Below are positions 8,233-34,400 of a DNA stretch of 40,083 bases, one piece after another (the first letter of the stretch is position 1; each line of letters opens with the position of its first letter). This stretch comes from Myxococcota bacterium (GTDB taxonomy: Bacteria; Myxococcota_C; UBA6777): assembly GCA_963169055.1 (NCBI GenBank), contig CAUJFU010000136.1, forward strand, positions 1-40,083, given 5' to 3'. The translations under genes were made by a program, and so were the position numbers. The notes beneath the pieces were generated by a model that was not told the DNA's origin, did not search any database, and was given only the letters and a program-made list of their open reading frames with translations.

Positions 8233-11200
8233 TCAGAAGCAGATCGCCTTATAGGTGATCTCGATCTTGGCACCTGCGGGGGGGGCATTGTTGAAGGCGA
8301 CGCTGTTGTCTGTGGGGACATAGGCCCAACCGTTGGTGGGATCGGCTTGTGGGACATTTTGCCCGTTCACTTTTACGGTGACGGTGGCGGGATCAGCGGG
8401 GCGCGAAAGGAAGAATTGCTTGCGATAGCCAAAGGTGACTGCGCCGATCTGACTGAGCGTTCCGGCCCAGTTGTTGTTGCAGATCGAGGCGACAACGCCG
8501 TTGGTGGCGTTGATTACGTCAAGATAGCGACCGCTCGAAGAGGCGGACTGACCGCCACTTGAGCAGCTATTTTGTTTGGTGGCAGGATCATAACCGATCA
8601 CGCCGTTGACACGGAGAAGATCGGGGTTGCGAACGCCTTTGATGTTACGGAAGAAGTTGATGTAGTAGGGGGTTGTACCGGGCGATGAGTCGGGTTCATC
8701 GGAGATGATGATGATCGCAAGAGAGGCATCGTTGCGCAAAAAGCCCTTGTTGCCGCCTTGTGCGACATCCGTATTGATTAGCGGATGCGAAAGTGCGAGG
8801 CGAGCAGCTTCCAAGCCTTGTTCGTTGGCAGAGCCGTTGGTTCCGACGTTTGCGCTTTGTCGAAAGACAGTGGGGAGGCTGGGAGTTGCGTTGTCCATGA
8901 TCTTGGGGCTACCGCGCAATCCTCCTGGGGTGTTGTTGCCGCCACCGATCGGGGTTCCCGTGGTGACGTCGGTGGTGGTGATGCCGATCTGGAAGTCCAC
9001 TTTGAGGTTCTGCGCAAAAGTAATGAAGCTCGTAAAGTTGCTACCAAGGCTGGATTGTTCGTCGCCCATTGAGCAAGAGTTATCAACCACAAAGAGGATA
9101 TCGACTTTAGGTTGGCTGGCTTGATTGAAAACGTCCGTCTGTTCGGCGTTTGTGGTGCCTTCGGCAGCGAGGGGGACGGACAATGGCGATTGTTGCGTCA
9201 GAGAGTGTTCGACTTCAAGAACAGCGTTTTGTTTGACGGCGGCGGTGGCACGATAGGCCACTTTGATCTCGGATTGTTGGCCTGCGTTGATTGTAAAGGG
9301 CGTGGTTTGGGCCTGCACGATGCGGAAGCCGTTGGCTCCAGCCGCAGAGAAACCGACTTTGTTGACGGTGATGGCGGCAGGACAGGTGTTATAGACCAAG
9401 ATGCTTTCGTTTCGAGAAGAACAATTGACCGTGACAAGGCCGATATTGAGTTGATCGGGTACGACTTCAACGCAAGACTTGATCGCAAGGCCGGTCAGAT
9501 CGGCCTCTCGGTAGGGTGGCGTCCCTTGAAGAGAGACGCGAAGCTGTCCATCAAAAGAAGGCGACCCAAGCGGATTGGCTTCTTTTTCTGCAACAGGCGA
9601 AAAACCGACATCGATGTTGACGGATTGCGAGGGTTGGATCACAAGCGGTGGATTGCACACGCCGTTGGGGCATTGAGGCGGAAGAGCGGGCAAGACAAAG
9701 ACATTAGGGCCGCTGTATGGGGGGAATCCGCTGCGGTCGATAAAGGTCTCGATCTTGGTGATGGTGCAATCGAGAGCGCCTTGGTTGGTCCAGACGATCG
9801 GGATGGTCTTGGTTTTACCGATGACAGAAAGGCCGAAGTTGACGAGTTGCGGAACAGGGATCAGGTCGCAGATCCGTGCGGTACTGCCTTCGCCTTCGAG
9901 AGTGACGCGGATCGTCGGTTCATCAGGATCATCGCTGCGGATCTCGATAGCTCCCGGATCTTGGCCTGCGTCGATCGGTTCGTAGAGGACATTGAGTGTG
10001 GCGAACTTGTTGGGGCCGAGCTTGAGCGGAAACGTCGGTGGGTTATCGAGTTTGAATTCAGGCGAAGAACCTTGGGCGATTTGGACAAAGTTGACGGTAA
10101 GCTCGCGGTCACCGATGTTTGCGATGGTCATCGGCAAGATCTTTTTCAGAGCCACGCGGCCAAAGTTGATCTTGCGGGGCGTGACGTCGATGTTGGGGGC
10201 GGAGACTTTTCCAGACAAAGGAACATCCACGACAGGACTGGATGGGTCGTTGGACTCGACTTGAACGACGCCTTGGTCGCCAGCGCCCGTACTTGGGCGA
10301 TATTCGATCACAACAGGGCGACTTTCACGCGGTTGCAGAATCAAGCCCGTGATGGTCGGGACGATAAAAGCACCGCTTGAGCCGGCCTTGAGCGAGACTT
10401 TTTTGACTTCGAGGGGTGCGGAGCCGACGTTCGCGATCTGTAATGCTTCGCGCTTGGTTGAGCCGGAAGCAACGAAGCCAAAGTCGATCTGTGTGGGCGT
10501 CACTTGGATGGAAGGAGCGGCCAGCTTGCCTTCAAAGCGCAAAAGGTAGGTCTCTCCGCGCAGGTTGGGATCGGGGTCGCTTGGAGAGCAGCTACCGCCT
10601 TCACATTTGAAGGCCATCGTCCCGAGGTCAGGGTTGCGTGTGGTGGGCGAATACTTGGTTTTGAAGGTAAAGCTGGCGCCGACTTTGAGTTCTTTGGGGC
10701 CTTCGGGTTTGCCATCAGGGAAGGTAAAGCCCGGGCTAGACGCGGGATCCCACAAGATGCTGACGATCTTGAGATCCGCGTTTCCTTTGTTTTCGACGCG
10801 CACCTCGATCTCTTTGGTATCGTTTTGTTGCAACTCGCCAAAGTCTACGGGGCTTGGTGTAATCGCAAGACGCGGTTGTGTCGCACTCGCCAATAGCGGA
10901 ACGTCGAGGAACCCTTCACGAGGGATCACCGCACTGCTCTCGACACGCAAGCGCCCAGAAGCAGCACTTCCCGCAGGAGCCGTGTAGATCACACGCAGCG
11001 TGATCTGTTCGCCCGTTTTGTAGGCTTTCGGAAGCGTCGGAAGGCTCGCAGGATCGATGCGGAAAAAGCTCTTTCCTTGATCGATGGCGATCGAATTAAT
11101 CTGAACGGGACCTGTCTTGACTTCGATCAATAGGCTTTTTGCGTCTTCTTGGCCTTGTGATCCTGAAAAGGTCAACGTATCGGGAACAGCTTTGATCTCG

Positions 11201-11310
11201 GTGTTGGCTTGCCCAACGCCGTCATCGCATCCGCACTGCATCAAAAAAGGCGAACACATCAAAAGCACACAAAACAGCATACGCCGCATCAAGATTGTCT
11301 GTGCTGGCAT
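8233..11310 (-). CDS. ASH/choice-of-anchor-D repeat lipoprotein with C-terminal VWA domain
   Basis: A 1025-residue exported protein. The N-terminus is a signal peptide ending at a cysteine (C26, with a poor lipobox FLMQC), so lipid anchoring is likely but not certain. Residues ~30-720 consist of at least five Ig-like ASH/HYDIN ('choice-of-anchor D') modules, each starting with a strand like the one at ITPSPVDFGEL, VTPTQIDFGFV, VTPRKINFGRV or VPDQLNIGLV. A VWA-like domain follows from about residue 735, with a MIDAS-type DNSCS motif in VDILFVVDNSCSMGDE and a later IIIISDEPDSS strand. Such proteins are typical of Myxococcota cell surfaces and are presumed to bind ligands or other proteins; no substrate can be named. 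The ATG at 11310 has an excellent AAGGAG 6 bases upstream. It lies 190 bp downstream of a related lipoprotein gene on the same strand. Confidence 0.85.
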   Translation of the reverse strand: MPAQTILMRRMLFCVLLMCSPFLMQCGCDDGVGQANTEIKAVPDTLTFSGSQGQEDAKSLLIEVKTGPVQINSIAIDQGKSFFRIDPASLPTLPKAYKTGEQITLRVIYTAPAGSAASGRLRVESSAVIPREGFLDVPLLASATQPRLAITPSPVDFGELQQNDTKEIEVRVENKGNADLKIVSILWDPASSPGFTFPDGKPEGPKELKVGASFTFKTKYSPTTRNPDLGTMAFKCEGGSCSPSDPDPNLRGETYLLRFEGKLAAPSIQVTPTQIDFGFVASGSTKREALQIANVGSAPLEVKKVSLKAGSSGAFIVPTITGLILQPRESRPVVIEYRPSTGAGDQGVVQVESNDPSSPVVDVPLSGKVSAPNIDVTPRKINFGRVALKKILPMTIANIGDRELTVNFVQIAQGSSPEFKLDNPPTFPLKLGPNKFATLNVLYEPIDAGQDPGAIEIRSDDPDEPTIRVTLEGEGSTARICDLIPVPQLVNFGLSVIGKTKTIPIVWTNQGALDCTITKIETFIDRSGFPPYSGPNVFVLPALPPQCPNGVCNPPLVIQPSQSVNIDVGFSPVAEKEANPLGSPSFDGQLRVSLQGTPPYREADLTGLAIKSCVEVVPDQLNIGLVTVNCSSRNESILVYNTCPAAITVNKVGFSAAGANGFRIVQAQTTPFTINAGQQSEIKVAYRATAAVKQNAVLEVEHSLTQQSPLSVPLAAEGTTNAEQTDVFNQASQPKVDILFVVDNSCSMGDEQSSLGSNFTSFITFAQNLKVDFQIGITTTDVTTGTPIGGGNNTPGGLRGSPKIMDNATPSLPTVFRQSANVGTNGSANEQGLEAARLALSHPLINTDVAQGGNKGFLRNDASLAIIIISDEPDSSPGTTPYYINFFRNIKGVRNPDLLRVNGVIGYDPATKQNSCSSGGQSASSSGRYLDVINATNGVVASICNNNWAGTLSQIGAVTFGYRKQFFLSRPADPATVTVKVNGQNVPQADPTNGWAYVPTDNSVAFNNAPPAGAKIEITYKAICF

Positions 11311-11500
11311 CGAGCACTCCTTTCACATCAAACAAAACAGTGGGGTATCCAAAGGATACAAAAGCTCGAAAAAGACAGGCGATTCTCCACATCCCTCCAA
11401 CAAAAGACCGTCTTACATCGAGGACGGCCTATCGCCAATCCGTCCGATTATCGGTCAAGTCAGTACGAAGGAAACGGAAAAGAGCGGAGAAACCAAGAAA

Positions 11501-13180
11501 TCAATCTTCCACTTTGAGGGTCTCGGTCTTTTTGCCGGTCAATCCGCCTTCATCGGTCACTTCGAGCGTCACTTTAAACTCACCACGTCCATCCACCAAA
11601 AAAGTCGGCGTCTTGTCCGTTTCGCTACTAAGCTTACTCGCCGAACCCAACGGGACTTCGAGAGTCCATTTGTAAGCGGTAATCTTTCCCTCGCGATCAA
11701 AACTGGTGGAAGGATCTAGCTTAACGCGGGGTCGCTCACCACCACGAAAGACGGGGTTGGGGATGGGCTTGTCGACATCCGCAGCTTGACAAACATTCCC
11801 GCTGACTTCGGCGCATAGGAAAACAAACCGCGCAAACGGAGGGATATTGACTTCGGTTCCAGCACTAATCGAGACAACGATCCCCGAGGTGGGATCTGCG
11901 AAAGCAGGATCGTTGGTTTTGACAACAACTCCCGCAGATACAGCAGTTTGCGCGGTGGGTGCAAAGATAACTTCGACTTCAAGGATCTGACCTTTTGCAA
12001 GCACAATCGGGGTGGCTTGTGTGGGGGCAGGAACTTCTTGGCCGCCTTTTCTGAATTTTCCAAGCGCCAAAGAAGCGGGTGCAGCGCCTTTTCCATCATC
12101 GCTGGTCAGTTTCACATCGGATACTTGCAGGTCACACAGCGAATTTGCGGGATCGGGCTGTAATTTGAGTGTTTTGGTTTCCGTTTTCCCGACAGCAATG
12201 TTCGAGAACGTCATCAGCGACGAGTCGACGCTGCCGCGAGTGGGGCTACTGCCTTCAATGCGCAGCGAAAGCTGTTGCGCAGCAGGGGGCTGCCCTTTGT
12301 CTTTGTCGCCCTTTTGGAAGATGGAGTTGCTGTTGATATGGAGAACAGCTTTGTGATCGCCGCAGGTTTTGGGGGTGTATTGGACTTTGAATTCCATATC
12401 TTGGCTGGGAGTGAGCGCAAAGTCTTGGTTCAGATCGACGGGTTTTCCGTCTTTGTCTTGGATGGCATAAGACTTTGCGGGATCTTCTTGAACCCAAACA
12501 AAGCGAAATTTGAGTTCGCCCGTTGTTGCGGCGTTTCGGATGATCAAGGTGTCGACTTTGCTTTTGTCTTTTTCAATTTTTCCAAAAGAGATCAAAAAGT
12601 CCTTGTCACCGACCACTTGGGCGCTCACATCGATCTTGGGCTCACCGCCTCGCGTTTGCATGCGGATCTCTGTCGTCACATCGCCGATGCTTGTGGGATC
12701 GTTGACATTTTTGGTATTTGAAACAATCAACACCTTGGCGAGTTGAAAGTCGTTGCTGTTGGAGAAGGTAAACTCAACAGAAAATTCTTTTTTCTCGCCG
12801 GGCTTGAGCTTGAATGGAATGGAGGGAAAAGGGACACATTGTTGTTCGTCGGCCCCAAGAGGGCATTGATCGGAGATCAGTTTGAACTGCGCACTCGCCG
12901 CAGCATCGAGCTTAATCGACTTGATCTCCAGATCTTGGGCGGTGGGTGCGGGGTCGATCTTGTTGCGGATGGAAAACTTTTTGTAGATCCGCAGCCCCGC
13001 AGGGCGGACTTCGCCGATGTTCCAGCTATCAGGCGTCAATTCGATCTCAGGCAAGATCGGCGGGACGGTTTTTTCTTCGGGGCAAGCGGTTTGAAAAACA
13101 CCCATCACCAACAAAAGCAACGCCCACACCGAGATCTTCGCGATCCGTTGCGGCCAAAAGTGTCGCACAAATACATCCAT
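11501..13180 (-). CDS. ASH-type lipoprotein with C-terminal PKD-like domain
   Basis: A 559-residue lipoprotein. The signal peptide (WALLLLVMGVFQTAC) places the lipidated Cys near residue 33. The mature protein starts with an ASH-like module (EIELTPDSWNIGEVRPAG), continues with two or three more Ig-like modules of the same type (for example SSLMTFSNIAVGKTETKTL), and ends in a PKD-like domain with AYKWTLEVP and FKVTLEVTDEGGLTG, the usual PKD closing pattern. It has no VWA domain, unlike its downstream neighbour, with which it shares module type and orientation. The two are probably co-transcribed and may work together on the surface. The ATG at 13180 is preceded by AGGAAA at suitable spacing. 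The function is unknown. Confidence 0.83.
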   Translation of the reverse strand: MDVFVRHFWPQRIAKISVWALLLLVMGVFQTACPEEKTVPPILPEIELTPDSWNIGEVRPAGLRIYKKFSIRNKIDPAPTAQDLEIKSIKLDAAASAQFKLISDQCPLGADEQQCVPFPSIPFKLKPGEKKEFSVEFTFSNSNDFQLAKVLIVSNTKNVNDPTSIGDVTTEIRMQTRGGEPKIDVSAQVVGDKDFLISFGKIEKDKSKVDTLIIRNAATTGELKFRFVWVQEDPAKSYAIQDKDGKPVDLNQDFALTPSQDMEFKVQYTPKTCGDHKAVLHINSNSIFQKGDKDKGQPPAAQQLSLRIEGSSPTRGSVDSSLMTFSNIAVGKTETKTLKLQPDPANSLCDLQVSDVKLTSDDGKGAAPASLALGKFRKGGQEVPAPTQATPIVLAKGQILEVEVIFAPTAQTAVSAGVVVKTNDPAFADPTSGIVVSISAGTEVNIPPFARFVFLCAEVSGNVCQAADVDKPIPNPVFRGGERPRVKLDPSTSFDREGKITAYKWTLEVPLGSASKLSSETDKTPTFLVDGRGEFKVTLEVTDEGGLTGKKTETLKVED

Positions 13181-13937: not shown

Positions 13938-15572
13938 ATGTTAGAGAAAATGCGGACACACTCCCGCAACTGGTTGATCTCGTTTCTCTTTGGCATCATC
14001 ATCGTGGTTTTTGCGATCAACTTTGGCCCGGGCTTCGATCAGCTCAACCAAACAGGCTGCGTGCGCAACGCAGGGAACGCAGCGACCGTCAACGGCGAGC
14101 CGATAACGCGGCAACTCTTTATGATGCGCTGGCAAAACTACTTGCAAGCGCGTCAGATCCCGCCGCAATTTATCCAAGCCCTCGACTTGAAAGGCCGATT
14201 GATCGGCGAGATGATTGATGTGCTGTTGCTTTCCCAAGCGGCGCGCCGTTATGGGATCCAGATCGCCGACGAAGAAGTCCAACAACAGATCATCGAATCA
14301 TCCGAGTTCCAAAACAACGATAAGATCTTCGATCCAGAACGTTTTCGTCGATTGGTAAGCTATTACGGCCTCACCACGGAACAATACCAAGAACAACGTC
14401 GCCAACTTCTTCAAGCCGATCGGATGCGCGCTGTGTTGACGGCAGGCGTGCAGGTCTCGGATGACGAAGTGCTGCAACGTTACAAAGAAAACAACGACAA
14501 AGCCAAGATCGCCTTCCTTTCGCTTCCAGCGACAGGCATCAAGCTGGATGTCAAAGTCAGCGATCAAGAAATCGATGCGTTTGCAAAAGCCAGCGGCAAC
14601 GAAGAAAAGCTCAAGAAGCTTTTCGATTCGCGCAAGAGCAACTACGAGCGCAAAGTGCGCGTCAGCCACATCCTCGTGAAGACCGATCCTGCGCGTGCGA
14701 ATGATGCCGCATACATCGCAGAAAAGCGCAAAAAGATCGATGATATCCGCGAAAAATTGCTGAAAGCCCCCAATGACTTCGCCAAACTTGCCCGCGAGCA
14801 ATCCGACGATTCCACTCGCGCAAACGGCGGTGACTTGGGCTTTATCAACCAATTGATGATGGTTCCTCCCTTTACCAAAGCATCCTTTGCTCTCAAGCAG
14901 ATCGGCGAGATCAGCCCTGTGGTACTGACCAACTTCGGTTACCACGTGATCAAACTGACAGGCGAACAGCCCGAGCGCACCTTGGCCGATGCGAAGCTTA
15001 AACGCGAACTAGCCCGTGAATTGGTCGAAGCCGAGCGCAACCAAAACGCAACGATGATCCTCGCCAAACAATTCCTCGCAGAAGCCCAAAAAGGCGCCCG
15101 CTTCGAGGATATCGCCAAGCGTTACCAAAAACAGGACGCACCGAAAAAAGGCGCGACTTCACAACCCACTTCCGCAGCATCTCGCCCTGCTTCACAAGCG
15201 CCTTACTACGCCCAACTTGTAGGAAAAGTGGTGGTCAAAAGCCCCGCAGCGTTTACGCGCTTTCCCGACAACATTCCCGATGTCGGAAGCATCGAAGAGA
15301 GCAAGTCTCTTGTCCATGCTGCTTTTTCGATGAAGCCCCAAGAACTGATGAACCAGCCTTTGGTGATCAAAGACAAGATCTTCTTGGTACAACTTCGCAA
15401 GCGCATCGACCCCAATATGAAAGAGTATGAGAAAGAAAAAGAGCAGCTTCGGGAACGAATGCTGAACCGCAAAAAGTCGCTTCTTGTCCAAACATGGCTC
15501 GAAAATATGCGCAACAGCGCGGATATCTTCAAAAACAAAACCATCCTCTCGTACGGCCCCAACCTTAACTAG
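13938..15572 (+). CDS. ppiD: PpiD/SurA-like membrane-anchored peptidyl-prolyl isomerase
   Basis: A 544-residue periplasmic foldase anchored by one N-terminal membrane helix (residues ~12-32, ISFLFGIIIVVFAINFG), as in PpiD. A SurA_N-type helical chaperone region (~45-200, VNGEPITRQLFMMRWQNYLQAR onward) precedes a parvulin (PPIC rotamase) domain from about residue 235, with VRVSHILVK, GGDLGFI and FGYHVIKLTGEQ, the characteristic parvulin motifs. A Ser/Thr/Ala/Gln-rich linker near residue 405 and a second helical part follow. PpiD-like proteins assist folding of secreted and outer-membrane proteins at the exit of the Sec translocon. The ATG at 13938 has AAGGTGG at good spacing. The length is slightly shorter than E. 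coli PpiD (623 residues). The local abundance of barrels and lipoproteins fits a general envelope folding role. Confidence 0.9.
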   Translation: MLEKMRTHSRNWLISFLFGIIIVVFAINFGPGFDQLNQTGCVRNAGNAATVNGEPITRQLFMMRWQNYLQARQIPPQFIQALDLKGRLIGEMIDVLLLSQAARRYGIQIADEEVQQQIIESSEFQNNDKIFDPERFRRLVSYYGLTTEQYQEQRRQLLQADRMRAVLTAGVQVSDDEVLQRYKENNDKAKIAFLSLPATGIKLDVKVSDQEIDAFAKASGNEEKLKKLFDSRKSNYERKVRVSHILVKTDPARANDAAYIAEKRKKIDDIREKLLKAPNDFAKLAREQSDDSTRANGGDLGFINQLMMVPPFTKASFALKQIGEISPVVLTNFGYHVIKLTGEQPERTLADAKLKRELARELVEAERNQNATMILAKQFLAEAQKGARFEDIAKRYQKQDAPKKGATSQPTSAASRPASQAPYYAQLVGKVVVKSPAAFTRFPDNIPDVGSIEESKSLVHAAFSMKPQELMNQPLVIKDKIFLVQLRKRIDPNMKEYEKEKEQLRERMLNRKKSLLVQTWLENMRNSADIFKNKTILSYGPNLN

Positions 15573-15788: not shown

Positions 15789-16193
15789 ATGTTTCACGAC
15801 CGCTGGCTTCGATGGGTGGTCTTTTATAGCGTGCTGGGTGGGGTATTTTTGGGATGGATCGAGCGCAACGCGTGGGCCCGATGCAACCAAACACTCTGCT
15901 ACGTTTGGGATGTTCGCAAAAAACGCTGCACCTTCCGTTGCAAAGCAGGGCGTGAGATGTGCTTTCGCGGAAAGTGTGTGCAGATCAAACGTTGTCGATC
16001 TCTGCGATGTGAGCGGTTTGATCCCTCCAAAGGGCGCTGTGTGTCGCAATGCCGCCAAGGGACGCTCTGTCACCAAGGCCGATGTATCCGCCAATGTCCA
16101 CGACCCATGTGTTACCTGAAAACAAAAAAACGTTGTGTCCAACGCTGCCCGCCAAGAACGAGATGCTTGAACGGCAAGTGTGCAAAAGACTAG
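15789..16193 (+). CDS. Small secreted cysteine-repeat protein
   Basis: A 134-residue protein with an N-terminal hydrophobic signal (WVVFYSVLGGVFLGW, probable cleavage at NAWA) and a mature part made of three repeats with six cysteines each, 18 in total, following C-x4-C-x7-9-C-x3-C-x5-6-C-x4-C. It is rich in Lys/Arg. The regular spacing suggests three small disulfide-bonded modules outside the cytoplasm. It resembles the Cys-rich 'Dickkopf/EB-like' modules seen in myxobacterial surface proteins, but no family can be named. The ATG at 15789 has GGGAGG 6 bases upstream. It sits between the PpiD-like gene and the membrane TPR gene on the same strand, with its own leader of about 215 bp. The function is unknown. 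Confidence 0.72.
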   Translation: MFHDRWLRWVVFYSVLGGVFLGWIERNAWARCNQTLCYVWDVRKKRCTFRCKAGREMCFRGKCVQIKRCRSLRCERFDPSKGRCVSQCRQGTLCHQGRCIRQCPRPMCYLKTKKRCVQRCPPRTRCLNGKCAKD

Positions 16194-16281
16194 ACGCAGC
16201 GAACCTCTCCATCATTCGGGGATTTTGCGCATTGAGGTGAGGCAACCAAGCGCGATCGATGGCATGACCAACGTATGCAAC

Positions 16282-16311
16282 TTGACAAACGCGGGGGAAA
16301 GGGGCTAGAGA
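16282..16311 (+). promoter_or_regulatory. Candidate promoter of the zinc-ribbon/TPR gene
   Basis: A perfect TTGACA (16282-16287) with an 18-bp spacer to TAGAGA (16306-16311), a weak -10 of the GCTAG type. It is 48 bp upstream of the chosen start at 16359 and argues against the in-frame ATG at 16275, which would lie before the promoter. Confidence 0.4.
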
Positions 16312-16358
16312 GAACAGGGCAAAGAACTGCAAACCCACACCATCGGGCCAAAAAAACG

Positions 16359-19220
16359 ATGAAGATACGCTGTGATAACTGCGCGACGGTATTTATGATC
16401 GACGACTCCTTGATCTCGGACAAGGGAGTCAAGGCACAATGCCCAAAGTGCGGGCATCAAAAGGTCGTCTGGAAACACAACGCCATCCAAGAAACATCAT
16501 GGATCGACGCACCCGAAGGGAGCTCCGCTGCAACAGCCAATCCGTCCGGCTGGATGGATGAGCCGCTTTCTGGCGTGCTGCAAGAAAAGCTCGCTTCGAT
16601 GGACAAAGGATCCGCACCGCTACTTGGAGGAAGCCCACCCTTGTTTGGCGGAGGCGATGCCGCACGCGGAGGCTCGCTGTTGCCCGGTGGGCCCACAGCC
16701 AGCTTGTACCCTCTCTCCAGCGCATCCTCCGATAGCTTATATCCCGCAGGAGAACAAGAACCTCTCGGTGGTGCGCTTTATGGCGCAGGAGCACGCGGAG
16801 CAAGCCTTTATCCAGCAAGCCCATCACAAGATCTCCTTCCTCCGCTTGGTTTGGAATATGAAGACTCTTTGTCGGGTGGTGGCTTTGGGGCGCCGACGTC
16901 GATGGTCTACAAGCCACACGGAGCACCCGAAACGCTTTCTCTAGACGAAGAAGCTGGTGATTCGCTCGCGCTGCATGTACCGCCCACCACGCTGACAGCA
17001 AGAGGCACCGTTGCATCCAACGAGCTCGGTCGCAAAACCACAGCAGAGGCCGAACTGCCTCCCGTCGATCCAGAATGGATCAAAGTCCGCCGCAGCAGCG
17101 ACAAAAAAGAGATCGGCCCCATGACCCTCCAAGAAGTGCGCTCTCTCTACGCGCACGGGAAGATCTCTTTGCTCGACGAGTGCGCGGGACGCGACGGGGC
17201 ATGGCGTCTGATTAAAGCGGTTCCTGAGATCGAAAGCATCCTCAGCCGAACCCCGCAAATCACCGAAAAAACTCCCGAAGTCAAAGGGGCCACCAAAGCA
17301 GCCAAAAGCAGCAGCGAGGGAGGCAGTTTCATTTGGGTAGTCTTGAGCCTTTTTCTGTTGGGCGGGGGCGCAGGTGCTGCCTATTTCTTGCGCCCATATC
17401 TCAAATCCAACAAAGGCCCAAACCCCGAAGAAGACGTTCCTCGTGCTGGCTTGCTCGAAACCAAGATCGAGCGGTGGAAGAAGAGTTATCCCGGACTCAA
17501 AGCAAGCCCCCGCGAAAGCAAAAAGATCGCGGAAAAAGGCATGGCCTTGTTTTATCGCGACCTTCAAAGCGACTATCGCGCCGCCAACGAGGTCTTCCAA
17601 CAAGCTCTTGTAGCGTGGGACAAAAATGGCGATGTCATCGCAGCAATCGCGCTTTCCGTTTTGTGGGGTTCGCAGGGTTTGCCTCGACAAGGCCGCATCA
17701 TCGAAGAGTTCGAAGAGATCCTGCGCGAGCACACAAAAAAAATACCCACGAACCAAGCGATCAAAGCGGCCTTTGCAGCTTTTCTTGCAAGACAAGGAGA
17801 GTTTGCCAAAGCCACCGAACAAGCCAAACAAGCCGCAGCCAAAGCCCCGAAAGATCCGCTGGTTCTGTTGGTCTTGGGAGAGTTGCTTCTCCAACAAGAG
17901 CGCACAGCCCTCGAAGCTCGCCCCGTTTTGGAGCGCGTCGTAGAAACCCAACCCAAGATGGCACGCGCACGCTATCTCCTTGCCAAGATACAAATCCAAA
18001 GTTCTAACCATTATCAAGCTGCTCAAAACCTCGAACCACTCGTCCAAAACAAACATCTCCCAAGCTTGTTCTTGATGGCCGAACTTCAAAACAGCCTCGG
18101 AAATTACCGAGAGGCCAAGCAAATCCTCAATCGGCTGCTTGCGATCGCTCCACAGGATGACGAAGCCCGCTTGCTTTTGGGCATCCTCGAATACCAAACC
18201 GCTCGCAACTTCGCCGCAGCCAAGCGCCTTTTCGCTCGCCTCAACCAAAACTCCACCCAACGCGGCGTATTGCGTCGTGCCCTTTTGCATCTCGCTTATG
18301 TCGCCTTGGAAGAAAACCAAACCCAAAAAGGCTTGGAGTTGATCGCACAGCTCGAAAAACTCGACAAACACTTCCTCCCTATCCTGTTTGCCAAAGCCCA
18401 GATCCTCGCAGCCAAACGCTCTTATCCCGAAGCCACCGCCGTTTTAAATCGATTACTTCCCCAAGTCTCCGAACCACCACAACAACTCTTGCTTGGTTAT
18501 CTTCACAACAAACAAAAACAACCTGACAAGGCCAACCAAGTCTTCCAACAAATCGCCAGCGAAAACCAACGCTTTATCTGGTCTCACCTCTTCCTTGCCG
18601 CCAACGCCATCGAAGCCAACAACGCAACCCAAGCCTTCATCTACATCAAAAATGCCCTTGATATCGAGCCGCCCTTGTACGCAAGCAACTTGCGCGTGGG
18701 TCCGTATCCTCTTTCGCGGCGTTTTCTTCGCGGCTTAGCGAAAACCTTCCGAGATGCCCGAACAGAGGACGCTTCTATCACCTTGGCTGCCGCAGGAATC
18801 GTGTACTACCAACTCGGCGACAGCAACGAAGCCTCCAACTACCTGAAACGGGCCCGTTCACGCGACGCCAACGCCCTTGCTGCAAACCTCTACCTCTCCC
18901 AAATCGCCTACGAAAAGAAGCAGTACGCCGCAGCGCAAAACTACGCACGTCGGGTGTTTCAAACGTACAACCAACACCCCGTAGCGGGCACTCTCTTGGG
19001 GCTGTGCGAGTTTCAAAAAGACAGCGAGAAAAAAGCGCTTGGCTACTTTGCACAAATCGAAGAAGCCCGTCCTTGGTATCTTTATGGACGCGCACACCGT
19101 TTAATCCTCTTGCACAAAAAAGGCGAAAAGAAGGAAGCCCAAGAACTGGCTCGTTCTTTGTTGACCTTGTACCGCCACAACCACGACTTGTTGCGCATCC
19201 TCTATAGCATCCAATGGTAG
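16359..19220 (+). CDS. Zinc-ribbon/GYF-domain membrane protein with long TPR array
   Basis: A 953-residue protein. It begins with an MJ0042-type zinc ribbon (C5, C8, C28, C31), followed by a ~170-residue Gly/Ala/Ser/Pro/Tyr-rich disordered segment. Next comes a GYF-like (DUF4339) domain at about residues 239-292 (EIGPMTLQEVRSLYAHGKIS), one membrane helix (~322-345, WVVLSLFLLGGGAGAAYFL), and a C-terminal half of tandem tetratricopeptide repeats (~390-953). The topology suggests a cytosolic zinc-ribbon/GYF sensor and a periplasmic TPR scaffold. Similar arrangements are common in Myxococcota and are sometimes linked to motility or secretion, but no function can be assigned here. The ATG at 16359 was chosen because it starts exactly at the zinc ribbon and lies downstream of a candidate promoter; the Shine-Dalgarno is poor, and an in-frame ATG at 16275 is the alternative. 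Confidence 0.82.
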   Translation: MKIRCDNCATVFMIDDSLISDKGVKAQCPKCGHQKVVWKHNAIQETSWIDAPEGSSAATANPSGWMDEPLSGVLQEKLASMDKGSAPLLGGSPPLFGGGDAARGGSLLPGGPTASLYPLSSASSDSLYPAGEQEPLGGALYGAGARGASLYPASPSQDLLPPLGLEYEDSLSGGGFGAPTSMVYKPHGAPETLSLDEEAGDSLALHVPPTTLTARGTVASNELGRKTTAEAELPPVDPEWIKVRRSSDKKEIGPMTLQEVRSLYAHGKISLLDECAGRDGAWRLIKAVPEIESILSRTPQITEKTPEVKGATKAAKSSSEGGSFIWVVLSLFLLGGGAGAAYFLRPYLKSNKGPNPEEDVPRAGLLETKIERWKKSYPGLKASPRESKKIAEKGMALFYRDLQSDYRAANEVFQQALVAWDKNGDVIAAIALSVLWGSQGLPRQGRIIEEFEEILREHTKKIPTNQAIKAAFAAFLARQGEFAKATEQAKQAAAKAPKDPLVLLVLGELLLQQERTALEARPVLERVVETQPKMARARYLLAKIQIQSSNHYQAAQNLEPLVQNKHLPSLFLMAELQNSLGNYREAKQILNRLLAIAPQDDEARLLLGILEYQTARNFAAAKRLFARLNQNSTQRGVLRRALLHLAYVALEENQTQKGLELIAQLEKLDKHFLPILFAKAQILAAKRSYPEATAVLNRLLPQVSEPPQQLLLGYLHNKQKQPDKANQVFQQIASENQRFIWSHLFLAANAIEANNATQAFIYIKNALDIEPPLYASNLRVGPYPLSRRFLRGLAKTFRDARTEDASITLAAAGIVYYQLGDSNEASNYLKRARSRDANALAANLYLSQIAYEKKQYAAAQNYARRVFQTYNQHPVAGTLLGLCEFQKDSEKKALGYFAQIEEARPWYLYGRAHRLILLHKKGEKKEAQELARSLLTLYRHNHDLLRILYSIQW

Positions 19221-19461
19221 CGCCCATCTACGAGCCTCACAGGACACCCCAAAAGCACTAAGGCCATCGCGGGCCATTCCTCAACATCGGCGGAATGCTC
19301 CGCAAGCGCGAAGGTCGTCGTGGACAAGTTCTCAACACACCAAAACCCACACGACTCGATCGCCTAGCACCACAAACACAAGCATCAACACAAATACAGA
19401 TCAAAACGGCGCGATGGTTCGAGCCATTCGCCCCAAACATCAAGCGAAATGAGGGAGTACT

Positions 19462-19983
19462 ATGGAAAATCCGTTGGTTGCGGTTGTGATCTCTGCCGAA
19501 AACGAACTGGCTTATATGGAAGAATGTGAGCGAACCCTGATCGGCTTTGGAATCCCTTTTGAATCGCGTGTCCTCTCGCTTCAACAAGCCCCCGAACACT
19601 GCATCGAATGGGCGCGCTCCGTCGAAAAACGCGGTGTCAAGGTCGTGATCGCGGGTTCCAGTTGGTCTGCGCCCTTGGCTTCGGTGCTTTCTTCTTTCAC
19701 CATCCTCCCTGTGATCGCTGTCCCCCTTCCTATCTCTCCAATGCACGGACTCGATGCACTCATGGGCATGGCGCAGTCCTATGTGGGCGCACCCATCGCA
19801 ACGATGGCCGTCGGCAAACCCGGGGCCGCAAACGCAGGGCAATTGGCCGTTCAGATCTTGGCCTTGCAGTTTCCTCAGCTTGGAGACCAGTTGCGCGCCT
19901 ATCGCTCGGGCCTCGCAAAACAAGTCGAAGCCAAAGACGGTGCGCTCTACCAAGATCGCCAACGCCGTCGCCTTGGGAGTTGA
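19462..19983 (+). CDS. PurE-fold protein with altered active-site motifs
   Basis: A 173-residue protein that aligns along its whole length with N5-carboxyaminoimidazole ribonucleotide mutase (PurE): IPFESRVLSL, GVKVVIAGS, LPVIAVPLP, GLDAL and the strongly conserved GKPGAANAGQLAVQILAL. All three substrate/catalytic motifs have changed. The GSxSD loop is SAENE (residues 11-15), SAHRTP is SLQQAP (39-44, so the catalytic His and following Arg are Gln-Gln) and AGGAAHLPG is AGSSWSAPLAS (the His is Pro71). It is therefore unlikely to make CAIR and is better called a PurE paralogue of unknown reaction. No purK or other purine gene is nearby. The ATG at 19462 has GGGAG 5 bases upstream. The next gene starts 3 bp after its stop, so the two are probably translated from one message. 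Confidence 0.85.
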   Translation: MENPLVAVVISAENELAYMEECERTLIGFGIPFESRVLSLQQAPEHCIEWARSVEKRGVKVVIAGSSWSAPLASVLSSFTILPVIAVPLPISPMHGLDALMGMAQSYVGAPIATMAVGKPGAANAGQLAVQILALQFPQLGDQLRAYRSGLAKQVEAKDGALYQDRQRRRLGS

Positions 19984-19986
19984 ACG

Positions 19987-21987
19987 ATGCGGATCTGGGT
20001 GGTGTGGAGTGCCGTCCTTTGGATGTTTTGGCGATCTTTCGGCGCGGAGGCACTCGCGGCCCCTCCACCCGGCCAAAGCGCGCTACTCAACGGCATGCAC
20101 GATATCGAATCTGCCGCATGGATGAAAAACGCCACACCCGGTTGCGACAAAGGCTGGATTACCGATCTCCGCTATATCGGCACACAAGGTAGCCCCTCCG
20201 CCGACTGCCACCAAGCCACCACCCAAGCAGGCATCTCGATCATCCAACGCCTTGATGTCAGCGGATCTGAATCTTATCCCCACGATCCCGCCCAAGCGAC
20301 CGCCTACGCCAACACCTTCGCTGCCTACGTCGCTCAATGCCCCAATATCCACGTCTGGATCGTCGGAAACGAACCCAACTTTACGGTCCACAAAAGCGAT
20401 CCCGACTGCTCTTCTTCGGCTTATGCCAAGGCTTACGCCGAAGTCCACAAGCGCGTACACGCCTTGCCCGGACACCAAAACGATCTCGTCCTCCTCGCCT
20501 CCAATTCGCCCTATTCTCCGGGATGTTTGGCAAGTCTTCGTTCCATCATCCGCTACGTCAAACAAGAAGGCGTACAGCCCGACGGTTTCGCTGCTCACGC
20601 CTACACACGCGCCCCCAACGCCGGCCAACTCAACGCAAGCCTCGTCACCGATACACGCCGTCAGACCGACCCCACCGCCGATGAATGCCCCGGGCCGATC
20701 ACTTGGAATGACACATGGTACTCACATTTCTTGATCTACCGCGATTACATTGGTGTGATGGAAGCCGAAGGTATGCGCGGAAGCCCCGTCTTTATCACCG
20801 AAAGCGGCAACGCTTGCGATCCTGTCCGTGGCAACGCTTGTTATCCCAACGCCGATGTCGGCTATTTCCAAGCCCTCTACAAAGAAGCCCATCAATGGAA
20901 CAGCAACAGCGCCAACCTCACCAAGATCCGTGCAATCACGCCCTATCGATGGACGATCAACGATGATGGTACAGGACGAGACTTCGCCATCGGCCAAAAG
21001 CCCGGTCTGTTGGGGGATCTGACCAAAGCCTTCGCTCAACGCTACGCGTGGACCACCGTCGGATGCGGAGGACAAACAGGTTGCACCAAAGATGCGGATT
21101 GTCCGCAAGCACAGCGCTGTGACACTTCAAGCGGCCAGTGCGTCGCTCCCCCCTGCAAACAGGCCGCAGACTGCGCAGGAAAGATCTGTAGCCCCAACAA
21201 TTGTTCAACCTCTGCCGGTCAGTGCGTGGACAAAGGCGAGGGAAGTTTTTCTTGGCAAACCAACCCACCCGTCGCCGGGCAAGACCTGCGCATCCAGTTC
21301 ACTCACCCTTCTGGTTGGACACACATCGGTCTACGTTATTGCGGTCCTGCGTCGGGTACAGGCCGCGATCTCAAGATATCGCGAGATCCCCAAGATCGAC
21401 CGATCTGGGCCTTTACCATCGGCCCCCTTCCTGCGGGACGTTATCGCGTCGACTTCACTGCTGACAGCGAAACCCGCACCATCGGCTCCACCGAACTGAT
21501 CGTCCCTTCCCCTTGCTCTCCCAAACCCGAAGAATGCAACAACCAAGACGACGATTGCGACGGCCAGATCGACAATGGCCTCTCACGCTCCTGCTACGAT
21601 GGCCCTCCCGAAACGCGAGGACGCTTGCCTTGTCAAGATGGCACGCAGCTTTGCAATGCCGGTGGTTGGGGGCCTTGCGTCGGCCAATCGTTGCCTGCCA
21701 CCGAACGCTGCAACCAAGCCGACGACGATTGCGACGGACAGATCGACAACGGTTGCAACACCCACCCCGAACCTCTCTCCGAAACCACCCATGAATCCGC
21801 CCCACAAGAGCCTTCTCCCGACAGCGCCGCAAACGAGATATTGATCTTGGACGGCAGCGAACAAGACAAAGAAAAAACAGTCCTGCGCCCGACAGGTTGT
21901 GGCTGCACAGGCTCAGAAATGCCCATTTCAAACGGGTTGCTTTTGGGTGGATTCTTGCTCTTGTTCTTGCTGCGTCGGCGTTTTTGA
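19987..21987 (+). CDS. Glycoside-hydrolase-like surface protein with MopE motifs and MYXO-CTERM tail
   Basis: A 666-residue exported protein. After a signal peptide (cleavage near AEALA, residue 24) comes a TIM-barrel-like domain (~30-355) with features of clan GH-A hydrolases: an acid/base-like Glu in IVGNEPNF (E129), a nucleophile-like Glu in VFITESGN (E272), and FAAHAYT between them. Cysteine-rich modules follow (~360-420), then an Ig/carbohydrate-binding-like domain, two DDDCDGQIDNG metal-binding motifs of the MopE type (about residues 517-530 and 574-588), an acidic/Ser linker, and a C-terminal GCGC plus hydrophobic helix plus RRRF. That tail is the MYXO-CTERM sorting signal known from Myxococcota, implying surface anchoring. 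GGGAG at the end of the PurE-like gene serves as the ribosome-binding site for ATG 19987. The substrate is unknown. Confidence 0.85.
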   Translation: MRIWVVWSAVLWMFWRSFGAEALAAPPPGQSALLNGMHDIESAAWMKNATPGCDKGWITDLRYIGTQGSPSADCHQATTQAGISIIQRLDVSGSESYPHDPAQATAYANTFAAYVAQCPNIHVWIVGNEPNFTVHKSDPDCSSSAYAKAYAEVHKRVHALPGHQNDLVLLASNSPYSPGCLASLRSIIRYVKQEGVQPDGFAAHAYTRAPNAGQLNASLVTDTRRQTDPTADECPGPITWNDTWYSHFLIYRDYIGVMEAEGMRGSPVFITESGNACDPVRGNACYPNADVGYFQALYKEAHQWNSNSANLTKIRAITPYRWTINDDGTGRDFAIGQKPGLLGDLTKAFAQRYAWTTVGCGGQTGCTKDADCPQAQRCDTSSGQCVAPPCKQAADCAGKICSPNNCSTSAGQCVDKGEGSFSWQTNPPVAGQDLRIQFTHPSGWTHIGLRYCGPASGTGRDLKISRDPQDRPIWAFTIGPLPAGRYRVDFTADSETRTIGSTELIVPSPCSPKPEECNNQDDDCDGQIDNGLSRSCYDGPPETRGRLPCQDGTQLCNAGGWGPCVGQSLPATERCNQADDDCDGQIDNGCNTHPEPLSETTHESAPQEPSPDSAANEILILDGSEQDKEKTVLRPTGCGCTGSEMPISNGLLLGGFLLLFLLRRRF

Positions 21988-22062: not shown

Positions 22063-23436
22063 TTACGGCGCGTCTCGACCGGGAAGCCACTCTTCCTCTT
22101 TGGCGAGATCTTGCGCTTTTGCCCGAATCTCCGAGGATGAAGACTTATTGCGCGTAATCTCGATCAACACGGGCTTGGACCCTTCTAACTTGACACGCTG
22201 GGCATCCGAAGACCATTTGTCTTTGCGCAAGCGCACGACGTAATCCCCCACAGGAAGGCTCAAACTAAACCCACCATTTTGCAAACTCCCGATCGGCGTA
22301 TCATCGATCACAAGCTCCGCATCAGGGACATCGGAGGCGATCACCAATTGCCCGTTGGCTGTAGGCGGAGCGACGATGCGCGGTCCTGTGTTGCCAGAAA
22401 AGATCTGCCGCAGAGTTGTGCGGTTGGCAAAGATCGCGTACGCGATCAGACCAAAAAACACCGCCGCATAAATCATCAACATCGGCGTTGCAAATACGCG
22501 CTTGTTGAGCCAATGCGCCAGCCCAAGCTCTTGTTCCATGCGCTTGGTGATCAAGTCGACGGGCTTTCGGACATATTTGACGTTTTGCGGGATCGCGGGT
22601 TGGGGCTTCGGAGACTTTGTCAGATCCGCTCCCGAGAGCCGCACGACGATGGACGTCACGTTGTCCTTTCCACCATTTTCGAGCGCTTGTCGAACCAACG
22701 CAACTGTCGCGGCTTGGACGTCCTGATGTTGGTTTAAGATCTCCTTAATCCTTGCATCGGGGACTTCGCCGTGTAGCCCGTCCGAACACAGCATGATCAC
22801 ATCGCCTTCTTCAAGTTCGATGAACTTGAGATCCACCAACACTTGCGGGGTCGTACCAAGGGCTTGCAAGATCACGTTCATTCCCGCGACATTCTCCGCA
22901 TGCTCGGCGCTGATCGCACCTTCTTCGATCAATCTCTCTAACAATGATTGATCCTTTGTGACACGCGTTAATTCACCACCACGCAACAAATAAGCCCGAC
23001 TATCGCCCACTTGCGCAAGAAATGCGACATCGCCATAGATCGCCGCTGCCGAAACCGTCGTGCCCATCCCCTTTTTGGAAGTGTCCTGTTGAGCGAGCGT
23101 ATAGATGCTGTGGTTGGCTTTTTGGATCGCATGATCCAATTTTTCTCCGAACAGTTGGGGATCTTGGGCAGGTTCAAGATCTTGAAGCTCTCGAAACAGC
23201 GTATCCACCGTCATCTGGCTCGCCACTTCGCCCGCAGCCGCACCGCCCATCCCATCGCACACCGCAAACAACAACCCTCGCCCACCCAAACGCCACGTCT
23301 CACGCGTTTTATGCCGACCTCTGCGTTGGGTTTGCAGATCGGCGATCAAAAAATTATCTTCGTTCCCCTTACGAACACGCCCTACGTCACTCAGGCCAAA
23401 AAATTCCGCGCTGATCTTTGGTGCTAATGGATCCAT
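22063..23436 (-). CDS. PP2C-type Ser/Thr phosphatase with membrane helix and C-terminal PEGA domain
   Basis: A 457-residue protein. Residues ~10-270 are a complete PPM/PP2C phosphatase domain with the metal-binding motifs GRVRKGNEDNF, VCDGMGG, QVGDSRAYLLR, LCSDGLH and GKDNVTSIVV all present, so it should be an active Mn/Mg-dependent phosphoprotein phosphatase acting in the cytosol. A single membrane helix (~308-333, TPMLMIYAAVFFGLIAYAIF) leads to a periplasmic PEGA-like domain (~352-420: LVIASDVPDAELVIDDTPIG, GDYVVRLRKDKW). PEGA domains more often sit on kinases. It may reverse phosphorylation by kinases such as the one at 31448. The ATG at 23436 is preceded by GGAAGGG with almost no spacer, so initiation may be weak. 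It is divergent from the Bat cluster. Confidence 0.92.
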   Translation of the reverse strand: MDPLAPKISAEFFGLSDVGRVRKGNEDNFLIADLQTQRRGRHKTRETWRLGGRGLLFAVCDGMGGAAAGEVASQMTVDTLFRELQDLEPAQDPQLFGEKLDHAIQKANHSIYTLAQQDTSKKGMGTTVSAAAIYGDVAFLAQVGDSRAYLLRGGELTRVTKDQSLLERLIEEGAISAEHAENVAGMNVILQALGTTPQVLVDLKFIELEEGDVIMLCSDGLHGEVPDARIKEILNQHQDVQAATVALVRQALENGGKDNVTSIVVRLSGADLTKSPKPQPAIPQNVKYVRKPVDLITKRMEQELGLAHWLNKRVFATPMLMIYAAVFFGLIAYAIFANRTTLRQIFSGNTGPRIVAPPTANGQLVIASDVPDAELVIDDTPIGSLQNGGFSLSLPVGDYVVRLRKDKWSSDAQRVKLEGSKPVLIEITRNKSSSSEIRAKAQDLAKEEEWLPGRDAP

Positions 23437-31381: not shown

Positions 31382-31447
31382 GTCGTGTACTCTACTGCGC
31401 CGCAGATCGGCGATCTTTGCGCCACTCTTTCGCCACACAGTCAACCC

Positions 31448-34400
31448 ATGAGACCACGAGAGGCGATCTTGACATCTCCCCGCTCTACCACCCCCGAACG
31501 ATGCCCGCGCTGTAGTCACACCCTGACCCGCAGCCCCAACGCAGAACTGGCCTTTTGCCTCAATTGCCGCTTTCCGCTCAAACCCATCGCTGGAAAGTAC
31601 CGATTGATGCGCCAACTCGGCAAAGGCGGCACGGGCACCGTTTATCTCGCCAAACACATCCACCTCCGACGACAGGCCGAGCGCGTCGTCAAGGTCGTCC
31701 CCCTCGAACCCACCCAAACCCACCAGATCGAACGCTTCGAACAAGAGATCCAAGTCACCGCGCTTCTTTCTCAACAAAACGAACATATCGTCCGCATCTA
31801 CGACGATTTTGGACACGAGCCTGAACTCGGCTATTACTACGTCATGGAATTCCTTGAGGGCCGCAGCCTCCGCGAGATCCTTATCCAACGCGAGCGCCTT
31901 TCCCCCAAAGAAGCCATCCATATCACCCACCAACTCTGTCTCGCCCTTCAACTCGCCCACTCCGAAGATATCATCCACCGCGATATCAAACCCGAAAATA
32001 TCCTTGTCATCGAACGCAACGACGATCCTTTCTTTGTCAAACTGATCGACTTCGGCATCGCCCACCTTCTCGAAAACCAAAGCAACGACGGCCCCGCACA
32101 AGTCATCGTCGGAACCCCCCTCTACATGGCCCCCGAACAATGCCTGAACCGCACCATCGACGCACGCACCGATCTTTACGCCGTTGGCATCGTGCTTTAC
32201 GAGATGCTTACCGGCCAACATCCCTTCGTCGATATGCACAACCTCGACCAAAGCAACAGCCTTTCCATCATGTTCGCCCAAGTCTGGAACGCCCCACCCA
32301 GCCCACACGAGCGCTTCCCCGCCCTCCAAGCCCCCAAAAAACTCGACGATGTGATCGCCAAAATCCTCGCCAAAGACCCCAACGAACGCTTCCAACACGC
32401 CCAAGATATGGACACCGCACTCCAACGCGCCGCCCAAGATGCCGATTGGTCCGCCACTTCCACTTCTCCCGCTGCTTCGACCACCCACTCACGACCTCCC
32501 CAGATCCACCACACCGTCAGCGAACTAGACCGATCCAGCGCTCCCACCGACCCTTACCCCGGCACACAAACGCGCATCCAACACGACACTTCCGAGCAAC
32601 CCGACGTAGCCCCAATCCAGATCGAAAGCGACCTTCTGCCTTCCGCCTCTGACTTTGATGAACATGAAAAAGAAAAAGAAAAAGCTCCCATCGTCTATCG
32701 CACGCTTCTTAGTGCGCAACTTGCGAGCTTGCCGCGACCCAAGCTCCAAAAGACCAACATCCGCCCTCCCCACAAAAGCTTTGTCGGACGACACCAAGAA
32801 CTCCAAGATATCCAAGATGCTTACGCACGCGGCGAACGACTCGTCTCTCTCCTTGGCCCGGGTGGCACAGGGAAAACCAGTCTTGCACAACACTTCGGCC
32901 TCCAACAAGTCGACCAATTTGACGGTGGTGTCTGGTTTTGCGATCTCAGCGAATGTTATTCCCTCCCCGAGATGCTTCAAGCCATCGCCCAAGCCCTCCG
33001 CATCACCCTTCACGCGGGTGAAGCCGAACAACACATCCACCAGATCGGCTACGCCCTGCATTGTCGCGGCCAAGCCCTGATCATCCTCGACAACTTCGAG
33101 CAGATCACCCCCCACGCACTTCCCACCGTTGGCCGCTGGTCTCAAGAAGAAAGCCTCGTCCGCTTTCTTGTCACCTCACGCGAAAAACTCCAAATCATCG
33201 GTGAATGCGCTATCCCTCTACCCCCACTCCCCGAAGATCAAGCCGTTCAACTCTTCCTCGATCGCGCACGCACCCTCCGACCACGTTGGCAACCCAACCA
33301 CCAAGAACTCCGTACCATCGAACAGATCGTCAAGCACCTTGATCGCCTTCCCCTTGCCATCGAACTCGCCGCTGCACGCATCGATATCCTCTCCCCGCAA
33401 GCGTTGTTCGAGCGCCTCCAACAACGCTTCAACCTCCTCTCTCATCCAAGCCAAGGCGTCCCCGCTCGGCAAGCCACTCTGCGCGGAGCCATCGACTGGT
33501 CGTGGGATCTCCTGAGTGACGCAGAGCGCGACGCCTTCACCCAATGCGCCATCTTTCGGGGCGGCTTTACCCTCGAAGCCGCCGAGCGCATCCTTCAACT
33601 CGACCCGCTCCCCAACGCTCCTTCCACCATCGATCTGATCCAAGCCCTCCGCAACAAATCTCTTCTCTACATCCTCCCCAACGAACACGCCCAACAAAAC
33701 CAACGCCTCGGCATGTACGAAAGCATCCGCGAATACGCCAAAGAACGCTTCCATCAATCCCCAAAACGCGGCGATGTGGCCGCCATGCACGCAGCGTATT
33801 ATCTCGAACTCGCCGAATCTTTTCTCCACGATCTTCACGGAAACAACGGCCTTTCCAACCTCCGCCAGCTTCTTGCCGAAACCGAAAACCTCCAAGCCAT
33901 CTTCGACCGCTACGTCCCCCACGACCCCAACGTCGCTCTGCGCGCCCTTCTTGTCCTTCAACCCGCCCTTGAACGCAAACAAACCCAAGACACCATGCTC
34001 CAGATGGTCCAACTCGTCCTCAACCAACAAGACAAAGTCCAGCCCGCTCTCTATCCTCGCGCTTTCCGCCTCTATGCCCATCTCTGCCGACGCCTCGGCT
34101 ATCTCGACCAAGCCAACAAAAGCCTACACACCGCCATCACACAAGCCATCCAACACTTCGACCCCCTCGAAGAAGCCCAAGCCCGCCTCGCCCAAGGGCA
34201 TCTCTTCGCACAACGCCGACAACGCGAAGAAGCCGAACTCGCCTTCCGTTCGGCACTCCTGTTCTTCGAGCAAAGCAAACAACACCCCCACCTGCTCGCC
34301 AACACCTACAACGATCTCGGCTCTCTCTTCCGACAAAACGGCTCCCTCGAAGAAGCCGAACCCTACCACCTCAAAGCCCTTTCCCTTCAACGCCAATACG

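Follow-up and report, generated by a model that had tools for sequence, protein, structure and literature searches.

The window, the whole 40,083-nucleotide stretch of DNA analysed here, encodes a 173-residue protein with an ATG start that is a paralogue of the PurE (AIRC) family in which the active-site loops have been replaced (Table 1). Judged from its sequence, the paralogue very probably has no mutase activity, and we tentatively regard it as a PurE-fold pseudoenzyme with a role outside purine synthesis, possibly one in which it binds, or provides a scaffold for, the TPR protein encoded upstream. The pseudoenzyme reading is drawn from the replacement of catalytic and phosphate-side residues, the predicted PurE fold, strong purifying selection, a separate intact purE-purK pair, and the place of the gene after the TPR gene, and the proposed role from gene position and constraint.

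Table 1 Coordinates of the paralogue, its motifs, and neighboring genes in the window
Feature	Position	Strand	Basis
SurA/PPIC-type foldase	13938..15572	+	Pfam SurA_N_3 and Rotamase; upstream in 5/5 genomes, partial in L040
Cys-rich protein, 134 aa, signal-like N-terminus	15789..16193	+	Conserved in 5/5; no Pfam match
Zinc-ribbon/transmembrane/TPR protein	16275..19220	+	Pfam Zn_ribbon_4 and TPR; adjoins paralogue in 5/5
Shine-Dalgarno-like GAGGGAG	19451..19457	+	Read directly, just 5' of the paralogue ATG
PurE-family (AIRC) paralogue, active-site loops replaced	19462..19983	+	ORF and AIRC match; 5/5 group genomes
Loop 1, SAENE for GSxSD (residues 11-15)	19492..19506	+	Invariant in 5/5 orthologues
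Loop 2, SLQQAP for SAHRTP (residues 39-44)	19576..19593	+	Orthologue alignment
Loop 3, GSSWSAPLAS for G(A)GGAAHLPG (residues 65-74)	19654..19683	+	Variable among orthologues
GKPGAANA block (residues 118-125)	19813..19836	+	Shared with most PurE rows
Long C-terminal helix (residues 138-171), ends QDRxRR	19873..19974	+	Helix in predicted model
Surface-type protein, MopE-like repeat, weak MYXO-CTERM-like tail	19987..21987	+	Next ORF, 3 bp after paralogue
PP2C phosphatase	22063..23436	-	Pfam PP2C_2; near paralogue in 4/5 genomes

Family membership and predicted fold

The Pfam AIRC model (PF00731) matched the paralogue at domain positions 2-146 of 148 (E=2.4e-35; 121.7 bits, cut-off 30), which places it in the AIRC superfamily by the gathering cut-off and over the whole domain. 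Its score with the purE equivalog model (TIGR01162) was 114.5 bits, below the cut-off of 149.6 for class I PurE, and with the LarB equivalog model (NF033503) 23.6 bits, below the cut-off of 175. An AlphaFold2 model built from a 53-row alignment had a pLDDT of 95.4, and the 50 PDB matches listed for it were all PurE structures (rmsd 0.8-1.2), so that the protein is predicted to adopt the PurE fold. The 53 rows were those of the 57-row alignment described below minus L032, L063, L078, L084, and L002 (the last a duplicate of the window), with the window sequence added; because this alignment is rich in true PurEs, the model indicates compatibility with the PurE fold more than it provides an independent result.

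Replacement of the active-site loops

Profile alignment of PurE-like frames gave 57 distinct rows, namely five orthologues of the window protein and 52 others, all of them best matches of earlier searches and hence not a random sample of PurE. The SAHR motif, the AH of GGAAH, and the loop-1 Asp were present in all 52 other rows, and the exact GSxSD motif in 48 of them when the alignment table was read by eye; the five orthologues formed a single type within the alignment. Loop-1 and SAHR motifs were likewise found in 10 of 10 loci checked from the phylum of genome G251. With 52 of 52 other rows keeping the motifs, the loop replacement is not due to chance. The three substitutions named in the original prediction were confirmed in the window protein, and the check it proposed, whether close homologues share them, came out positive for motifs 1 and 2, with loop 1 constant at 7 of 8 positions across the five orthologues, but not for loop 3, in which WSAP varies.

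The prediction had also stated that the catalytic His and Arg were both lost. This is true for the Arg of SAHR, which is Gln in 5/5 orthologues; at the catalytic-His position four of the five orthologues, the window protein among them, have Gln, but the orthologue of genome G003 (locus L006) still has His. In PurE, the loop-1 serines and the Arg of SAHR are the phosphate-side residues, and in all five orthologues these positions are occupied by Ala, Asn, and Gln, respectively. The loss of the Arg and serines, together with the relaxation of loop 3, speaks against a nucleotide ligand. According to PMC9376930, all PurE proteins of classes I and II share the catalytic His, its replacement by Gln leaves the Escherichia coli enzyme inactive and the A. 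aceti enzyme with only traces of activity, and residues homologous to the PurE phosphate-side positions are described for human PAICS.

Constraint is distributed differently along the two proteins, as seen in the four genomes carrying both genes. Within residues 64-75, which include loop 3, true PurE was invariant at all 12 positions and the paralogue at 4 (Fisher P=0.0013, treating columns as independent); the paralogue no longer shows the constraint that keeps the GGAAH loop unchanged in true PurE. Residues 154-169 gave 12/16 invariant positions in the paralogue versus 5/16 in true PurE, and the C-terminal helix as a whole 16/34 versus 10/34, which was not significant (P=0.21, full-length rows). 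The loop around residues 86-127 is mostly kept, 26 sites are fixed differently between the paralogue and the true PurE of the group, and 90 of the 173 paralogue positions are invariant in all five orthologues. The GKPGAANA block is intact, as originally described, but is not fold-defining, since the group's own true PurE, that of the window genome included, lacks the GK at this place.

Selection and ancestry of the paralogue

Between the species of the window and other genera, amino acid identity was 65-68% for the paralogue, 70-71% for true PurE, and 36-39% for the TPR protein. The pair G000-G001 gave dN/dS values of 0.014 (paralogue), 0.023 (PP2C), 0.048 (true purE), 0.054 (TPR gene), and 0.119 (surface gene); these values come from one close pair with unsaturated synonymous sites and are rough, as changes are few. 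The paralogue thus evolves about as slowly as true PurE, and strong purifying selection keeps the protein despite the loss of catalytic residues, which is the mark of a pseudoenzyme. A decaying duplicate would fit the lost catalytic residues and the relaxed loop 3, but the ORF is open in 5/5 genomes and both the low dN/dS and the 90 invariant positions contradict decay, so that we rejected this explanation, giving it practically no chance.

In the phylogenetic tree, whose bootstrap was not fully settled, the paralogues had a stem of 1.39 changes per column with support of 100/100 and short branches inside, and they formed a clade separate from the true PurE of the group. The latter is missing two residues still present in the paralogue. 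From this difference and the separate clades, the paralogue is unlikely to be a recent duplicate of the group's own purE.

Occurrence of the paralogue and of true purE

The window genome (assembly 86% complete, 523 contigs) contains three AIRC genes. Besides the window gene, these are a true purE on contig C424 (1.6e-66) and, on contig C41, a gene for LarB, which scores 283 bits where the LarB model requires 175. The true purE is intact and lies beside purK. The second canonical purE that the original prediction had proposed to look for therefore exists, and the absence of any other purE, named there as an argument against it, does not apply. In four of the five genomes of the group, purK directly precedes the true purE; neither gene was found in the 930-contig assembly G002, and since both are lacking we take this to reflect a missing stretch of the assembly.

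The altered paralogue was present in 5/5 genomes of the window's phylum-level group, which consists of uncultured bacteria, with 65-99% identity and the same gene order; the sample comprises one family, and two of its members are near-identical in the paralogue. A profile of the five orthologues scored 344-351 bits on these genomes. Elsewhere its top scores were 166 bits (381 other genomes), 140 bits (377 genomes from the phylum of G251), and 151 bits (195 genomes from the phylum of G032), the last two phyla having been added because a member has several MYXO-CTERM tails. Such tails are also common in all five group genomes (14-19 scored matches each), though the group is classed as a phylum of its own. 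In total, this profile search did not find the altered paralogue in 949 different genomes outside the group. Scanning named genome contigs with two peptide patterns, which distant altered copies could escape, returned four loci, all from this group and labeled as Myxococcota, Myxococcales, or Deltaproteobacteria MAGs; the 29 pattern stretches in a viral collection included no relative of the paralogue. No report of such a PurE paralogue was found in the open-access literature, subscription papers being mostly outside the search.

Gene neighborhood

The order SurA-like foldase, Cys-rich protein, zinc-ribbon/transmembrane/TPR protein, and paralogue was the same in the five genomes (in L040 the foldase is partial), with gaps of 241, 183, 34, 26, and 70 bp between the TPR stop codon and the paralogue. 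The transmembrane segment of the TPR protein was read by eye, and its orthologue L039 gave a weak GYF_2 match (22.4 bits, below the cut-off of 25.8). The N-terminus of the TPR protein may resemble GltJ, with a zinc-ribbon match of 36.8 bits (cut-off 450); no paper on this likeness was found in the open-access literature. The TPR ORF in Table 1 is probably 28 residues too long, as the orthologues begin at the zinc ribbon, which makes 16359 the likely start.

Pfam searches with the full length of 22 window ORFs recognized no purine gene apart from the paralogue. The matched ORFs include Omp85-type, VWA, PP2C, Ser/Thr kinase, and FGE-sulfatase-type proteins and are mostly related to envelope and signaling. 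A promoter and terminator scan found four promoter-like sites where 3.5 were expected, which corresponds to chance, and yielded nothing decisive for an operon; PADLOC gave no defense match for the paralogue and two neighbors.

Downstream, the original prediction had coupled the paralogue to a MYXO-CTERM surface protein resembling glycoside hydrolases. The 3-bp spacing is correct, but the tail of this protein scores 12 bits, short of the MYXO-CTERM cut-off of 20, and no glycoside-hydrolase match appeared in Pfam (E<=5) or in PDB sequence searches with the single sequence and a three-row profile. Its structure model was poor (pLDDT 43) and lent the assignment no support. The segments GNEPN and TESG are invariant in the three sequences compared, and we take them to recall clan GH-A. 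The surface gene adjoins the paralogue in two of the five genomes, both of the window's genus, lies about 5 kb away in one, and is absent from the examined stretch in the other two; the proposed coupling was thus not supported, the conserved partners being upstream, and the surface gene was rejected as a general partner. The stretch between the paralogue and the PP2C gene varies among the genomes, and genus-specific insertions lie beside the paralogue (L038:10619-12685 and L039:8538-13560).

Possible functions of the paralogue

The original alternatives, a repurposed protein or a pseudoenzyme, were right in outline for a paralogue whose altered motifs 1 and 2 are conserved. Under the pseudoenzyme reading, which we favor while granting it somewhat less than an even chance, the protein would be cytoplasmic (no signal peptide was seen by eye) and would oligomerise as PurE does. 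Its acidic, fixed loop 1 and charged C-terminal helix may bind a partner or a small ligand. As partner, the zinc-ribbon/GYF-like region on the cytoplasmic side of the TPR protein is the likeliest, and the paralogue could act as a scaffold or sensor within an envelope machine. The full version of this scheme is speculative and on its own unlikely: the PurE fold would form an oligomeric, cytoplasmic part of an envelope machine specific to this lineage and would dock on the zinc-ribbon/GYF-like/transmembrane/TPR protein, its old active site having become a non-catalytic binding site. Several observations count against the favored reading: the L006 orthologue retains His at the catalytic position, the evidence comes from five genomes of one family with two near-identical paralogues, and the TPR protein diverges fast between genera, which the paralogue does not. 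Conserved gene order may by itself reflect local conservation.

An enzyme with a changed substrate, its pocket rebuilt for another, probably non-phosphorylated ligand and still catalytic, seems to us somewhat unlikely. The fixation of loop 1, the largely retained loop around residues 86-127, and the 26 differently fixed sites would suit such an enzyme, and LarB, an AIRC protein acting on another substrate in a pyridinium carboxylation, offers a precedent; loop 3, however, is unconstrained, either Gln or His occupies the catalytic position, and no metabolic genes were recognized nearby among the window ORFs scanned with Pfam. Decidedly improbable is a regulatory or structural partner of true PurE that forms mixed octamers tuning purine synthesis. 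The same predicted fold is consistent with it, as is PurE' of Methanobacteria, which according to PMC3261824 is fused to PurE and whose deletion abolishes complementation, but the paralogue lies far from purE-purK and amid envelope genes. Very improbable is a second functional N5-CAIR mutase or AIR carboxylase whose motifs are merely atypical: the full-length AIRC match above the Pfam cut-off, the His of one orthologue, and the lack of another purE in G002 can be cited for it, whereas the score below the equivalog cut-off, the replacement, in 5/5, of the Arg on the phosphate side and of the two loop-1 serines, and the true purE in four of the five genomes oppose it, and G002 also lacks purK, as a missing contig would explain.

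Compared with known systems, the paralogue resembles class I PurE (TIGR01162, PF00731) in whole-length homology, predicted fold, and the GK.GAANAG block, but differs in the replaced GSxSD, SAHR, and GGAAH motifs, in its equivalog score, and in not lying with purK. Like LarB (NF033503), the nickel-pincer cofactor carboxylase, it would be an AIRC-domain protein with another job, but it lacks the N-terminal part of LarB, scores far under that model's cut-off, and occurs in a genome with its own LarB. The Methanobacteria PurE' is, according to PMC3261824, a divergent second PurE domain suggested to be possibly structural; this likeness is one of description, and PurE' is fused and needed for purine complementation, whereas the paralogue has a gene of its own among envelope genes. 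A PurE paralogue that is stably retained without the reportedly universal His, accompanied by a true copy as a built-in control, would make a clean case of a purine-enzyme fold adopted for another use, and it warns that a domain match alone is insufficient to annotate such genes as purE.

Other genes of the window

Two proteins encoded on the minus strand at 8233-13180 carry Ig-like domains of the HYDIN/ASH type, whose families take their names from proteins of cilia and centrosomes. A large Ser/Thr kinase fused to an NB-ARC/AAA and TPR region is encoded at 31385-35503 on the plus strand.
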